Below, in pieces: positions 13,192 to 37,247 of a DNA stretch of 63,072 nucleotides (position 1 is the first letter of the stretch; the number at the start of each line of letters is the position of its first letter). The translations under genes and the position numbers were made by a program. The stretch is from assembly GCA_020444175.1 (NCBI GenBank), contig JAHLLM010000034.1, positions 1-63,072 of the forward strand. The letters are read 5' to 3'. Below the pieces are notes generated by a model. It was given only the letters and a program-made list of their open reading frames with translations, had not been told where the DNA came from and did not search any database. Source of the stretch: Desulfobulbaceae bacterium. GTDB lineage: Bacteria; Desulfobacterota; Desulfobulbia; Desulfobulbales; SURF-16.

Positions 13192-13779
13192 CTAGACGGG
13201 TGATAAGCCGTTCAGGAAAGAATGGAGCACCAGGCCTGGGGCATCATTTCGAGCAATGTCGCCCTCCGAGACAGTCACCCAGGCGGTGTAGATCAGGTTG
13301 TCCAACACTGCCGCTATCCAGACTGGAGGGATATCCGCAGCGACAACTTTTTCTTCCCGTAATTTTGTTGAGAGTTCTTTTAAACGCACGAGCTGATTCC
13401 TGTAAAGATCCTCAATTCCGGAACATTCCGAGTAAATTTGTTCAGAACTGAGAAAATGAAAGCTTGCTCCAAGAGGGACAAGGACTTTTATATATTCTTC
13501 CAGGGTGTCCCTGGCAGTAAGCTTTTGCTCGAGAATTGGTTTGGTCGCGTTTTCAAGTTTTTGGTCGGCTTCCACGACAAGTTCGTGAATGAGCTGTTTC
13601 CTGGATTTAAAATAACGGAAGAGGGTGGCTCTGCCGATTTCTGCAGCCTCAGCAATTTCGTTGAGCGAAGCTTTTGGTTTTTTGGCAAGGACGTGCATTG
13701 CCAGGTTGAGTATTTTCTCCCTTGTTCGCTTTTGTCGATTATTTGACTTTGATTCCTCTGAATTATGAGGCTTTTCCAT
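13192..13779 (-). CDS. TetR/AcrR family transcriptional regulator
   Basis: The 195-residue regulator has an N-terminal helix-turn-helix: TREKILNLAMHVLAK, then LNEIAEAAEIGRATLFRYFK at about residues 40-60. An all-helical ligand-binding domain follows. The basic, asparagine-rich first 20 residues are a short tail before the HTH. It lies upstream of and parallel to the MATE exporter gene, 274 bases away, and probably represses it together with its own promoter. Confidence 0.9.
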   Translation of the reverse strand: MEKPHNSEESKSNNRQKRTREKILNLAMHVLAKKPKASLNEIAEAAEIGRATLFRYFKSRKQLIHELVVEADQKLENATKPILEQKLTARDTLEEYIKVLVPLGASFHFLSSEQIYSECSGIEDLYRNQLVRLKELSTKLREEKVVAADIPPVWIAAVLDNLIYTAWVTVSEGDIARNDAPGLVLHSFLNGLSPV

Positions 13780-13891: not shown

Positions 13892-14221
13892 TTAAACATC
13901 CGTACATTGAGCCCCGCGAATTATCAAACTTTTAAACCACAGGAATTTTGTAATGCCAATTTCGATGATTCCATTAATTTTCTCGCTTTGCACATTTTTT
14001 AACTGCCAGACCGTAATGTCCTGGGTACTGAACGTGGCGTAGTTTGTCATACTGCTCTCATCGGGTTTGCCCGTGCGTACCGCAGGGGTTGGATAACTGG
14101 CTCATCAGCCAAGTCCGCTGGGGCGTTGTTCAAGGTAAATTGTTATGACATTGCCTTTTTTTTTGATGAGCTTAAGGGCTTCAGGATGAATGCGGATTTG
14201 CGTTTCTTTTTGTGTTGTCAT
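13892..14221 (-). CDS. candidate selenoprotein with adjacent Sec-Sec, CC/Se motif family
   Basis: Reading two consecutive in-frame TGA codons (14105-14107 and 14102-14104) as selenocysteine gives a continuous 109-residue protein, starting MTTQKETQIRIHPEAL and ending at TAA. Sec would be residues 39-40, in LEQRPSGLG-UU-ASYPTPAV. The flanks on both sides look like one protein: an IHPEALKLIKKKGNV start, PAVRTGKP in the middle and KFLWFKSLIIRG near the end. As I recall the small CC/Se motif (seleno)protein family of Desulfobacterota, a CC pair sits at this place. A hairpin with a GUA loop begins 13 nt after the second TGA. No good Shine-Dalgarno is visible. Function is unknown; redox chemistry is expected. 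The alternative is a dead gene, but stops exactly at the CC position argue against that. Confidence 0.75.
14070..14088 (-). promoter_or_regulatory. candidate bacterial SECIS hairpin
   Basis: On the minus strand CCCCTGCG, loop GTA, CGCACGGG forms an eight-pair stem with one mismatch. The loop starts with G and lies 21 nt after the second TGA (24 after the first). This falls in the 16-37 nt window and small-loop-with-G rule described for bacterial SECIS elements. Confidence 0.6.
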
Positions 14222-14926: not shown

Positions 14927-15340
14927 ATGACTGAAGAACACAAACTGCGCATGACCAAACAACGGCAAATAATTCTTGAGGAATTACGAGCTGTTAAAAC
15001 GCATCCAACAGCTGATGATATGTATCAGATGTTGCGGAAGAGGATGCCCAAAATCAGTCTCGGAACTGTTTACAGAAATCTGGAGATTCTTTCCGAGTCT
15101 GGAATTATCCAGAAGCTTGATGTCGGGGGGACCCAGAAAAGATTTGATGGTGACATCAGCATTCACTCCCATGTACGATGTGTTGAATGCGGCTGTGTGG
15201 GTGATATTGATGTAAAGCCAAAATACAACCTGGAAGAGGAGGCCCAGAAAATGACGGACTTTGATATTTACCGTCATCGTCTTGAGTTTACGGGAATGTG
15301 TCCGAGTTGTAAGCAAAAGAAAAAGGTTGGCCAGGCTTAG
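14927..15340 (+). CDS. Fur family transcriptional regulator (PerR-like)
   Basis: The 137-residue Fur-fold repressor has the winged-helix segment HPTADDMYQMLRKR...SLGTVYRNLEIL and two CxxC pairs (CVEC, CPSC) that bind structural zinc. A histidine-rich regulatory site, DISIHSHVRC, lies between them. It is the first gene of a run with desulfoferrodoxin and ferritin, followed by fprA, which is typical of PerR-type peroxide control in sulfate reducers. GGGAGGA precedes the ATG. PerR and Fur cannot be told apart with certainty from sequence. Confidence 0.9.
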   Translation: MTEEHKLRMTKQRQIILEELRAVKTHPTADDMYQMLRKRMPKISLGTVYRNLEILSESGIIQKLDVGGTQKRFDGDISIHSHVRCVECGCVGDIDVKPKYNLEEEAQKMTDFDIYRHRLEFTGMCPSCKQKKKVGQA

Positions 15341-15393
15341 TTTGGCAATTTGTTGTTGTCTAATCGCAAAAAATACGAGAAAGGGTGAGGGAA

Positions 15394-15768
15394 ATGGCAA
15401 AACAGCTTGAGGTGTATCGGTGCGAATTGTGTGGAAACATTGTTGAGGTGCTGCATGGCGGAGCAGGCGAACTCGTCTGCTGTGGGCAGCCCATGACACA
15501 TTTAGTTGAAAATACGGTTGATGCTGCTAAAGAAAAACATGTCCCTGTCATTGAAAAAATTGATGGGGGTTATCTGGTGAAAGTTGGAAGCGTTCCTCAT
15601 CCAATGGAAGAAAAACACTATATCGAATGGATTGAACTCCATGCAGGCGGCAAGGTGCAGCGTCAATTCCTGCAGCCTGGAGATGCCCCGGAAGCAAAAT
15701 TTGCTTCCGATGAAAAAGATGTGTCAGCCCGTGAGTATTGTAACCTTCATGGATTATGGAGGAGTTAA
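15394..15768 (+). CDS. dfx: desulfoferrodoxin (two-iron superoxide reductase)
   Basis: The 124-residue protein reduces superoxide to hydrogen peroxide without making oxygen. The N-terminal desulforedoxin centre uses C10, C13, C29 and C30. The catalytic iron ligands are H49, H69, H75, C116 and H119, and E47-K48 sit beside the active site, numbering that matches classical desulfoferrodoxins. I use the ATG at 15394, since GTGAGG just before it serves as Shine-Dalgarno; a GTG nine bases earlier is possible. It follows the PerR-like gene by 53 bases and precedes ferritin by 3. Confidence 0.95.
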
Positions 15769-15771
15769 GGA

Positions 15772-16278
15772 ATGTTGAATGCCAAGATGGAGAAAGCTCT
15801 TAATGAGCAGGTGAACTGGGAACTCTACTCCTCTTATTTCTATCTTTCCATGAGCTCTTATTTTGAGTCAATCAGCCTGCCCGGCTGTGCTGCCTGGATG
15901 AAAGCCCAGGCCCAGGAAGAACTCTTTCATGCCATAAAACTTTATGGCTTTATTAATGAAAGAGGCGGGAGGGCCATTATGGAGGCCATCGGCAAGCCAC
16001 CTTCTGAGTGGGATTCGCCCCTTGCCGTTTTTGAAGATGTGCTGGCCCATGAACAGAAAGTGACCGGGCTTATTAATGATCTTGTTAATCTTGCCCTTGA
16101 TGAGCGCGATCATGCCAGTAATATATTTCTGCAATGGTTTGTTTCGGAACAGGTTGAGGAAGAGGCAAGCGTCGGTGGAGTCCTGGATAAATTCAGATTA
16201 ATTGGTGATGACAAGGGCGGTCTGTTTGCCATGGATCAGGAATTGGGACAGAGGGTCTTTACTCCGCCTGCAAAATAG
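15772..16278 (+). CDS. ftnA: ferritin
   Basis: The 168-residue non-haem ferritin stores iron as Fe(III) oxide. Ferroxidase residues E17, E50 and H53 are in the same places as in E. coli FtnA, with later acidic residues in the EQVEEEAS helix. It starts three bases after the desulfoferrodoxin stop, so the two are probably co-translated: superoxide is removed while free iron is locked away from Fenton chemistry. A strong terminator follows. Confidence 0.94.
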
Positions 16279-16333
16279 CCGTTGTGCAGGCTGAATTGCA
16301 GGCCGCACTTCCTTAGTTGCTTCTTGAAAATTG

Positions 16334-16373
16334 AAAGCCGCTATGACACATCGAGGTCGTAGCGGCTTTTTTT
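16334..16373 (+). terminator. intrinsic terminator after ferritin
   Basis: AAAGCCGCTATGAC pairs with GGTCGTAGCGGCTTT (14 pairs, one G-U) and is followed by a run of T. It closes the regulator-desulfoferrodoxin-ferritin transcript. Confidence 0.9.
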
Positions 16374-16427
16374 ATGTCCACGACTTTTTGAAATTGCGAT
16401 TGACATAATGAGATGATAAATGTTTTT

Positions 16428-16445
16428 AATTATCAACTAGTAATA
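16428..16445. promoter_or_regulatory. candidate operator upstream of fprA
   Basis: The AT-rich segment has ACTAGTAAT (16436-16444), the same core as in the palindrome before the PerR-like gene. It lies about 140 bases upstream of the fprA start. Shared regulation is a guess from this match. Confidence 0.35.
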
Positions 16446-16582
16446 AAGACGACCAGCATCATTATAAACGAGCTTTGAAAGATTTACGAACGTCGATCCC
16501 TGTGTTTGGGAACTGGGCACAGCAGACGGCGGGCAGAGTTGAGATTTTTGGCGACTTCATCATAATTCAAGGGAGGAATAAA

Positions 16583-17773
16583 ATGGGTGCATTTCAGATT
16601 AAGGAAAATGTTCACTGGGTTGGCGCGATTGATTGGAATATCAGGGATTTCCACGGGTATTCGACCTACAAGGGTACAACCTATAACTCTTTTCTTGTAA
16701 TGGATGAGAAGATTACCCTCTTTGATACCGTTAAAAAGCCTTTTAAAAATGAATTGCTGCATCATATTAACCAGCTGACCGATCCAACCAAAATTGATTA
16801 CCTTGTAGTCAATCATGTGGAGATGGATCATTCCGGATGTCTGCCGGAAATGATTGATATCATCAAGCCGGAAAAAATATTCTGCTCACCCATGGGGGAA
16901 AAGGCGATTCAGGCCCATTTCCATCCAAAGGACTGGCCCCTTGAAGTGGTTAAGTCGGGTGATACCCTCAGCCTCGGCCAGAAGACGGTTCATTTTCTGG
17001 AGACCAAAATGCTGCATTGGCCGGACAGCATGTTCTCATACATTCCGGAGGATAAACTGCTGATCTCAAGCGATGCCTTCGGCCAGCACTGGTCCACCTC
17101 CGAGAGATTCGACGATGAGGTCTCTGAGGCCGAATTGATGGATCACGCCGCAAAATATTATGCCAATATTTTGATGATTTTTTCGCCAAACGTGCAGAAG
17201 CTGCTGCAGAAGGTTGCGGAAATGAATCTCGATATTGACATGATTGCCCCGGACCACGGTCTGATCTGGCGCAAGAATCCCGGCAAGATCATTGATGCCT
17301 ACGCGGATTGGAGCCATTATAAAAGCAAGGAAAAAGTTGTCATTGTCTATGATACCATGTGGCAAAGCACTGCCAAGATGGCCAAGGCGATCAGTGAGGG
17401 TCTGTTGAGAGAGGGAGTCAGTGTCAAGATGATGGATCTCAAGGTTAATCACCGCAGTGACATTGTAACGGAAATCCTCGATGCCAAGGGGGTTCTGTTT
17501 GGTTCTCCGACTTTAAATAACGGCATGCTGCCGACAATGGCTGATCTGCTTACCTATTTGAAGGGCTTGCGTCCAAAACAGAAAGTTGGTGCGGCTTTTG
17601 GCTCGTTCGGTTGGTCCGGTGAGGCCGTAAAGCACATGAACGGCTATATGGAAGATATGGGGATCAATATTATTGACCCGGGAATCAAAGTGAAATACGT
17701 GCCCACCCATGAAAACTATCAAACGTGCTTTGATCTGGGAATAAAGGTTGGCCAGGCTGTGAAAGAAAAATAG
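16583..17773 (+). CDS. fprA: FprA-type flavo-diiron protein (rubredoxin:oxygen oxidoreductase)
   Basis: The 396-residue enzyme reduces oxygen to water (or NO to N2O) in anaerobes. The N-terminal metallo-lactamase-like half carries diiron ligands in NHVEMDH (H78, E80, D82), with later SSDAFG and APDHGL motifs. The C-terminal flavodoxin half begins VVIVYDTMWQSTAKMA. I use the ATG at 16583 because GGGAGG precedes it; an in-frame upstream extension lacks family similarity. The DVU0298-like gene follows after 7 bases. The electron donor rubredoxin is not encoded in the window. Confidence 0.94.
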   Translation: MGAFQIKENVHWVGAIDWNIRDFHGYSTYKGTTYNSFLVMDEKITLFDTVKKPFKNELLHHINQLTDPTKIDYLVVNHVEMDHSGCLPEMIDIIKPEKIFCSPMGEKAIQAHFHPKDWPLEVVKSGDTLSLGQKTVHFLETKMLHWPDSMFSYIPEDKLLISSDAFGQHWSTSERFDDEVSEAELMDHAAKYYANILMIFSPNVQKLLQKVAEMNLDIDMIAPDHGLIWRKNPGKIIDAYADWSHYKSKEKVVIVYDTMWQSTAKMAKAISEGLLREGVSVKMMDLKVNHRSDIVTEILDAKGVLFGSPTLNNGMLPTMADLLTYLKGLRPKQKVGAAFGSFGWSGEAVKHMNGYMEDMGINIIDPGIKVKYVPTHENYQTCFDLGIKVGQAVKEK

Positions 17774-36530: not shown

Positions 36531-37247
36531 CTAAAAAGGCCAGAGAACATCTAGTCCCCTGGCAAGCCATCCTGGTTGCTGTTTTTCGCTGATAACACCT
36601 GTCCCGCTGTATTCAATCCGTGCGTTGGCAATGTAGGAGGATTTAATGGAGTTGTCAGGGGAGATATCGCGGGGACGAACAATTCCGGAAACAACAAGAA
36701 ACTGGGTTTCATTGTTTACCCTGATTTCTCGGTAACCCTGAATAACCAGGTTGCCCTCCATGGTTACATCAATAACCCTGGCAGATAATGTTGCGGTAAC
36801 CGTGCTGTTTCTTTCAGTTTCGCCTTTACCTTCAAAATCGTTGGTGCTGTTTGCCTGGAGGCTTGTGGCTGATGGGGTGAAGTTTGCATTTTTAGCGGAA
36901 AGCCATTTTTCAAAACCGAAAAACTGGGTTATACCGGCTTCAACAGTTGCTTCTCTTTCTGTCTTGGTCCTTGCTGATTTTTTGCCGTTTGAAGTTTCCA
37001 CAACTTCCACCATGATGATATCCCCAACCTTACTGGCCCTGCTGTCCTTGTAAAGGTCCATGGCCTGATCACTGTAGAGAGATCCTTCCGTGGGCGAAGT
37101 TTGCTGAGGTCGAACCTCGGGCATGGCAAAGCGGTCAGGCATGGTGCTCTTCTTCACTGTGTCCGTTTTTGCCGAACATCCTGCGACAAGCAGGATGCCA
37201 AGTAAAAGGAGAGGGAATTTTCTAAAAGAATATCTTTTTGTTTTCAT
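36531..37247 (-). CDS. flgH: flagellar L-ring lipoprotein FlgH
   Basis: The 238-residue outer-membrane lipoprotein has a lipobox LLVAGC (C24). The FlgH core includes SLYSDQAMDLYKDSRASKVGDIIMVEV and the C-terminal LVIQGYREIRVNNETQFLVVSG segment. It forms the outer-membrane bushing with the FlgI P-ring. It lies between flgA and flgI; the 215-base gap to flgI holds that gene's own promoter. Confidence 0.95.
   Translation of the reverse strand: MKTKRYSFRKFPLLLLGILLVAGCSAKTDTVKKSTMPDRFAMPEVRPQQTSPTEGSLYSDQAMDLYKDSRASKVGDIIMVEVVETSNGKKSARTKTEREATVEAGITQFFGFEKWLSAKNANFTPSATSLQANSTNDFEGKGETERNSTVTATLSARVIDVTMEGNLVIQGYREIRVNNETQFLVVSGIVRPRDISPDNSIKSSYIANARIEYSGTGVISEKQQPGWLARGLDVLWPF

Follow-up and report, generated by a model that had tools for sequence, protein, structure and literature searches.

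A 2026 catalogue covers 119 prokaryotic selenoprotein families or subfamilies (PMC13188914). In the accessible part of it, the family NF041239 is listed with a single Sec in a CxxU motif, and the bacterial proteins with two Sec residues that are named are a UxxU Prx-like protein, a ferredoxin-thioredoxin reductase (CxU), and MbdU (CU) (PMC13188914). No row of that part carries a UU motif, and the rows that give no motif, including one with two Sec residues, cannot be judged in this respect (PMC13188914). Consecutive Sec residues have been described for the algal protein PDI_e, which has the motif GUGUU and which, in the accessible part of the report, its authors call the first selenoprotein with consecutive Sec residues (PMC7539508). 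Bacterial Sec-Sec is not named in the accessible parts of PMC2398784, PMC5029168, PMC1794560, and PMC2874816, and a term search of the accessible text of PMC12013277 for Sec-Sec gave zero matches. In the open-licence papers that were searched, no earlier bacterial candidate for a vicinal Sec-Sec pair was found.

A-type Fe-S carriers have three Cys ligands, the last two of which form a C-terminal CxC. HesB-like selenoproteins (TIGR01911/NF038090) are A-type carriers with Sec at the first ligand position and a GGU[SA]GP motif, and most of the sequences examined have a Cys-rich tail.

The window analysed here is the whole stretch of 63,072 nt of contig JAHLLM010000034.1 (assembly GCA_020444175.1, Desulfobulbaceae bacterium), which belongs to a genome of 5.4 Mb. 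Its minus strand contains, at 13892-14221, the coding sequence of a candidate double-Sec protein of 109 residues, translated with TGA as U and followed by a TAA stop codon (13892-13894). Codons 1-109 (13895-14221) form a single frame with TGA at codon 39 (UGA 1, 14105-14107) and at codon 40 (UGA 2, 14102-14104), both of which are putative Sec codons. Read from 14221 to 13892, the minus strand spells M...GLG-TGA-TGA-ASYPTPAVRTGKP...CTDV-TAA. An initial annotation of this DNA had claimed such a continuous 109-residue frame through codons 39 and 40, and translation confirmed it. The motif of the window protein is GUUAS, i.e. U39-U40 followed by Ala-Ser. By eye, no ribosome-binding site is evident upstream of the ATG.

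Tandem TGA codons with at least 30 open codons on each side occur at two places in the window, so that the bare pattern was discarded as evidence and only its conservation was counted. The second place, at 37013 on the plus strand, has 39 open codons before and 68 after the pair and resembles a non-coding reading. Since the bare pattern also arises by chance, as at 37013 (+), the weight of the TGA pair at codons 39 and 40 lies in homology and conservation. TGA serves as an ordinary stop codon in the window, where it ends 7 of the 28 open reading frames of at least 250 aa, and a variant genetic code was discarded for this reason.

The window protein was compared with the NCBIfam profile NF041239 ("CC/Se motif family (seleno)protein", Moor_selen_rel), which has a curated cut-off of 40 bits. 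It scored 51 bits with C and 47.4 bits with X at the TGA codons, and the TGA-TGA pair was aligned with the U/C of the relatives at the motif. The segment before the pair alone scored 17.6 bits (E 0.003) and the segment after it 25.5 bits (E 1e-5). The initial annotation had placed the pair at the CC motif of a small CC/Se family and had taken the parts before and after it for a single protein; the first claim agrees with the family match and the position of the TGA codons, and the second with the separate match of each half. NF041239 was the only NCBIfam family matched at E up to 1, and no Pfam family was matched at E up to 10.

The catalogued CC/Se family has one Sec in a CxxU motif, whereas the window protein would have two adjacent Sec residues (PMC13188914, accessible part). 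The algal PDI_e shares the two consecutive Sec residues, but according to the accessible part of its description it is eukaryotic, PDI-like, and has its own predicted SECIS (PMC7539508). It is unrelated to the window protein, which has GUUAS instead of GUGUU and lacks a Pfam match at E up to 10. The UxxU Prx-like protein, ferredoxin-thioredoxin reductase, and MbdU resemble it in combining two Sec residues with a redox or metal motif (PMC13188914, accessible part). We agree with the initial annotation that a vicinal Sec-Sec pair is very unusual, though it is not without precedent because the algal PDI_e has consecutive Sec residues (PMC7539508, accessible part). As far as the literature searched extends, the comparison supports the view that the NF041239 family and algal Sec-Sec are known and that a bacterial vicinal Sec-Sec candidate is new.

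Searches with NF041239 matched 7 of 58 relatives, 6 of them with two TGA codons, 10 of 257 genomes of the order (at E up to 0.01), and 13 of 395 genomes of the phylum. A second profile was built from eight proteins (six UU, one CU, and one UC) and matched 12 of 257 genomes of the class, eight with both TGA codons and four with one. The UU genes were those of the window genome (G000), G001, G006, G007, G014, G019, G020, and G531; seven of these eight genomes belong to the taxonomic family of the window and G531 to another family of the same order. The single-TGA genomes of the class were G021 (CU) and G478, G549, and G565 (UC). Eight of the 12 family-bearing genomes thus have TGA at codon 40, and a ninth, G021, has TGA behind a Cys codon. 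The UU pair is retained in proteins that are 31-43% identical to the window protein. G007 was recovered only with the UU-based profile and not in the NF041239 genome searches, though its protein scores 42.3 bits, and G021 was recovered among the 58 relatives and in the class, but not in the order.

Outside the order, the phylum sample contained 11 genomes with 13 matches. Eleven of these had UC, UA, UR, UG, or UK, in contrast to the UU of the window protein, and the remaining two were CC in G113 and neither motif type in the low-scoring G187, so that a single TGA is the usual state of relatives in the rest of the phylum. CC, CU, UC, and UU, the combinations to be looked for at the aligned position according to the initial annotation, were all found among the homologues. 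Ten of the single-TGA members (L009-L012, L014-L017, L020, and L021) all come from one other family of the phylum and have a Cys near the C terminus (e.g. AACSF, AACAV) that is not conserved in the UU members; it may be a selenylsulfide partner there.

In a named genome collection, two peptide patterns retrieved 59 stretches, of which eight encode relatives (5 UU and 3 UC). Their records are labelled Deltaproteobacteria, Proteobacteria, Desulfocapsa, Syntrophaceae, and Desulfobacteraceae. Among these relatives, the UU loci correspond to those of G006, G014, G019, G020, and G531, five genomes that are metagenome assemblies. The search for UU genes in other phyla consisted of the two peptide patterns. 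A pattern scan of viral contigs gave one match (L090), which was discarded as a chance match with a frame full of stops and no likeness to the family.

A tree of 26 sequences placed the UU genes among the UC genes. Because of this nesting, the sequences suggest that the UC form preceded UU. The deep nodes of the UU/UC group have support values of 34-61, and one UC gene (UC_L053) stands beside the window gene, so that a single origin of UU is tentative.

The occurrence of the pair in eight species speaks against a sequencing or assembly error, which was discarded as an explanation. The same observation bears on a further explanation, i.e. that the locus is a decayed gene, or that it contains two frames, one for a 38-residue product that ends at UGA-UGA and one for a downstream product from an internal ATG. 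This is exactly what standard gene callers would report, and the relative G021 does look broken. Its CU gene (L044) has a short upstream duplication that shifts the frame, and for this reason it may represent a decaying gene or an assembly fault. However, the frame around the same pair is unbroken in eight species, and the predicted single domain crosses the pair (see below). Moreover, the internal ATG of the window gene, codon 58, is not common to the relatives: in G014, the stretch from the pair to codon 70 is free of Met.

Ratios of dN/dS were determined for seven UU genes (G007 and G021 were left out). For the closest pair, G014/G019, dN/dS was 0.06 after the UGAs and 0.35 before them. Among the remaining 20 species pairs, silent sites downstream of the UGAs were saturated in 8, and the ratio in the other 12 lay between 0.16 and 0.73, which limits the evidence for selection. 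The frame downstream of the pair is under purifying selection in one close species pair, G014/G019, which also argues against decay or two separate frames, and we consider that explanation very improbable. The initial annotation had made its proposal dependent on homologues across both TGA codons and on conservation of the downstream part. Homologues do align across both codons, and the downstream part is conserved in the alignment, in dN/dS, and in its own 25.5-bit match. Ordinary gene finders, and screens that permit one UGA only, would overlook such genes, eight of which were found in one class.

The source genome contains selA (621.9 bits), selB (367.8 bits), selD (379.1 bits, with an in-frame TGA of its own), and tRNA-Sec (67.2 bits, anticodon tca). 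All of selA, selB, selC (i.e. tRNA-Sec), and selD, the absence of which the initial annotation had regarded as fatal for its proposal, are therefore present. The same genome also encodes an IscA/HesB-type protein with one in-frame TGA and the motif GGUAGP (L075, G000:C54; NF038090, 106 bits).

In bacteria, the SECIS directly follows the UGA within the coding sequence and is considered to work over a limited distance. According to the accessible part of the catalogue, the bSECIS model has a loop of 3-9 nt with a G in the first two positions, an upper stem of 4-16 bp, a distance of 16-37 nt from the UGA, and an energy of at most -7.5 kcal/mol (PMC13188914). Folding predicted a SECIS-like hairpin, CCC.UGCG-GUA-CGCA.GGG, at 14070-14088 of the minus strand (-9.0 kcal/mol). 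Its apical loop GUA (14078-14080) lies 24 nt after UGA 1 and 21 nt after UGA 2, and the loop, the four-pair upper stem, both distances, and the energy agree with the model. Hairpins also follow the UGAs of the selD and HesB-type genes of this genome, with the loops GGA and UGGAU at distances of about 20 and 25 nt, respectively. Of three places matched by the SelD motif, only the one in the selD frame was considered.

The hairpin of the UU genes is formed by the TPAVRxG codons and reads CCC.NGCG-GUN-CGNN.GGG, with a loop that begins with GU. All seven stem pairs are formed in 14 of 14 sequences, including the window gene. This set comprised 7 UU, 1 CU, and 6 UC genes (13 of the 14 sequences are distinct), while G007, the single-TGA members without a TPAVR-type motif, and the CC member were outside the count. 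G007 folds the same hairpin. Two pairs have compensatory changes on both sides, and five cells are changed on both sides. None of 500 shuffles reached the covariation score or the share of paired cells, with the caveat that kinship among the sequences can inflate such scores. Weaker covariation measures were reached more often, i.e. by 53 of 500 shuffles for pairs changed on both sides and by 12 of 500 for further pair types. The chance that the peptide gives all seven pairs was estimated at 0.001-0.0075 per sequence, based on the codon usage of the window and on species that are not independent. A further point against the hairpin is its overlap with the conserved peptide TPAVR.

The folding energy of the region was not unusual compared with shuffled sequences (z between -0.59 and +1.33 for six sequences), and the hairpin of G531, with -7.0 kcal/mol, is weaker than the model limit of -7.5. 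The case for the hairpin rests on conservation and covariation because the energies are unremarkable and G531 does not reach the limit of the model.

A single evident hairpin with a SECIS-like loop is also compatible with the decoding of one UGA only as Sec. The other UGA would then be read by near-cognate suppression (as Trp, Cys, or Arg) or act as a partial stop, and the full product would be rare. The SECIS of bacteria is regarded as sensitive to its position, which would favour the use of one of the two codons. In addition, each of the two spacings is seen alone in relatives with one UGA, i.e. 24 nt in a UC gene and 21 nt in the possibly broken CU gene; in the UC relatives, the spacing is 36 nt, or 24 nt in one of the six. 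UGA 1 aligns with the U of the UC-type relatives as well as with that of HesB-type selenoproteins, and UGA 2 with the Cys of the UC-type relatives. Codon 40 is thus Cys in the nearest single-UGA relatives but UGA in eight species, which is the usual Sec/Cys exchange, and a leaky stop would hardly be retained where Cys would do. We therefore regard the use of only one UGA for Sec as unlikely.

The frame is intact in eight species, the downstream hairpin is kept, and the Sec machinery of the genome is complete. The claim about the polypeptide and its decoding is strong, and the product of the gene is very probably a bacterial protein in which two Sec residues are adjacent. The preferred reading, to which we assign a probability of about 0.8, is a small CC/Se (NF041239) selenoprotein with U39-U40 that would depend on one SECIS hairpin and would be a degenerate A-type carrier with a metal/Fe-S or redox role. 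SelB and Sec-tRNA would decode the two UGAs one after the other by means of this hairpin, the loop of which is 24 and 21 nt away.

If this is true, it would be a selenium site of a kind not found described in prokaryotes, and the pair would represent a vicinal diselenide that occurs naturally in a protein of bacteria. Two UGAs before one hairpin make the distance tolerance within one message directly testable, and adjacent UGAs also make the reloading of SelB between neighbouring codons testable.

The proposed carrier likeness comes from the predicted fold. AlphaFold2, run on 24 aligned sequences, gave a mean pLDDT of 89.1 and a pTM of 0.80, with a single domain that spans the pair and a strand directly after it. 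Six of the ten best PDB hits of Foldseek were IscA or SufA chains. The other four were a putative Fe-S biosynthesis protein, AQ_1857, HI1723, and an ODPA-YNER model, the last three of which we take to be A-type-like, a point on which their titles are silent. Among these ten, only the first had an E value below 0.001 (SufA, E 7e-4), and the TM-scores to the query were 0.36-0.50. VIA-align gave ten entries with Z between 8.4 and 4.9, including SufA and DsrR, followed by a next entry with Z 2.5; the top entry was IscA (Z 8.4, 84 residues, 2.8 A), and Z values under 8 can reflect merely a common arrangement.

A profile comparison with the HesB-type proteins of the relatives scored 27.2 (probability 45%, P 2e-4) and paired U39 with the Sec of HesB, while the best of 200 column shuffles scored 15.4. 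A search of PDB sequences with the family profile retrieved four chains at E up to 10, none of them A-type (best E 0.3).

The predicted fold thus resembles IscA and SufA, but the window protein has neither a Pfam match nor the C-terminal CxC ligands. No conserved C-terminal Cys was present in the UU members in the structure alignment (G007 and G021 left out). As both the sequence-family comparison and the ligand comparison fail, the protein was not classed with the A-type carriers, and the carriage of a cluster is doubtful because the CxC ligands are missing. In contrast to the HesB-like selenoproteins, it has no Cys-rich tail, no match to the corresponding HMMs (TIGR01911/NF038090), and the motif UUAS instead of UxGP. 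The model resembles an A-type carrier in shortened form, in which the first ligand loop is kept and the C-terminal CxC has been lost. Because the HesB-type gene L075 has an in-frame TGA, two selenoproteins of A-type fold may coexist in the genome.

According to the predicted fold, the protein would be a degenerate A-type carrier (IscA/SufA/HesB-like fold) with the first cluster-ligand loop only. This loop would present a vicinal diselenol or diselenide, which would most likely bind a soft metal(loid) or an Fe/Fe-S species; alternatively, the pair may act as a redox switch of very low potential. It is likely that a true vicinal Sec-Sec is made at the two UGAs from a single hairpin and that, on a reduced A-type scaffold, the pair provides a diselenolate ligand or works as a diselenide switch. 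The chemical role of the pair is a guess that is right perhaps one time in three.

The decoding claim is shared by a further explanation, so that the odds of the two overlap. In this explanation, Sec-Sec is made, but it serves a thiol-redox or peroxide-reducing enzyme instead of a metal or Fe-S protein, and the A-type fold is only a scaffold. The missing C-terminal ligands of A-type carriers fit such an enzyme, and uncharacterised selenoproteins are mostly thought to be redox-active, as stated in the accessible part of the catalogue (PMC13188914). The window gene also adjoins desulfoferrodoxin, ferritin, and flavodiiron genes. However, genes of the Fur, desulfoferrodoxin, ferritin, or flavodiiron type were not recognised by eye beside the listed UU relatives, and a thioredoxin-like fold was absent from the Foldseek and VIA-align matches listed. 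A redox enzyme is thus a tentative possibility, and the preferred reading remains the degenerate A-type carrier with a metal/Fe-S or redox role.

The genes mentioned form a row at 14927-17773 on the plus strand, which is divergent from the UU gene and encodes a Fur-family regulator, desulfoferrodoxin, ferritin, and a flavodiiron protein (Pfam matches); it resembles an oxygen or oxidative-stress cluster. On the other side, the downstream neighbour is a TetR-type regulator (13192-13779, minus strand; PF00440), and the genes downstream of the window gene are TetR and MATE. No shared operon that would indicate a function was found in the neighbourhoods of the window gene and its relatives. The genes downstream of the relatives encode Nramp (G019, and G021 by likeness), an Na/H exchanger (G014), and an MnhE antiporter subunit (G001). 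The window, G001, and G531 have neighbours other than a 6-phosphofructo-2-kinase/histidine phosphatase gene. Such a gene lies near the family gene in six genomes of the window's family, i.e. G006, G007, G014, G019, G020, and G021 (L041-L045 and L083), and is absent beside the window gene; it was identified with Pfam for the copies of G014 and G006 and by likeness for the others.
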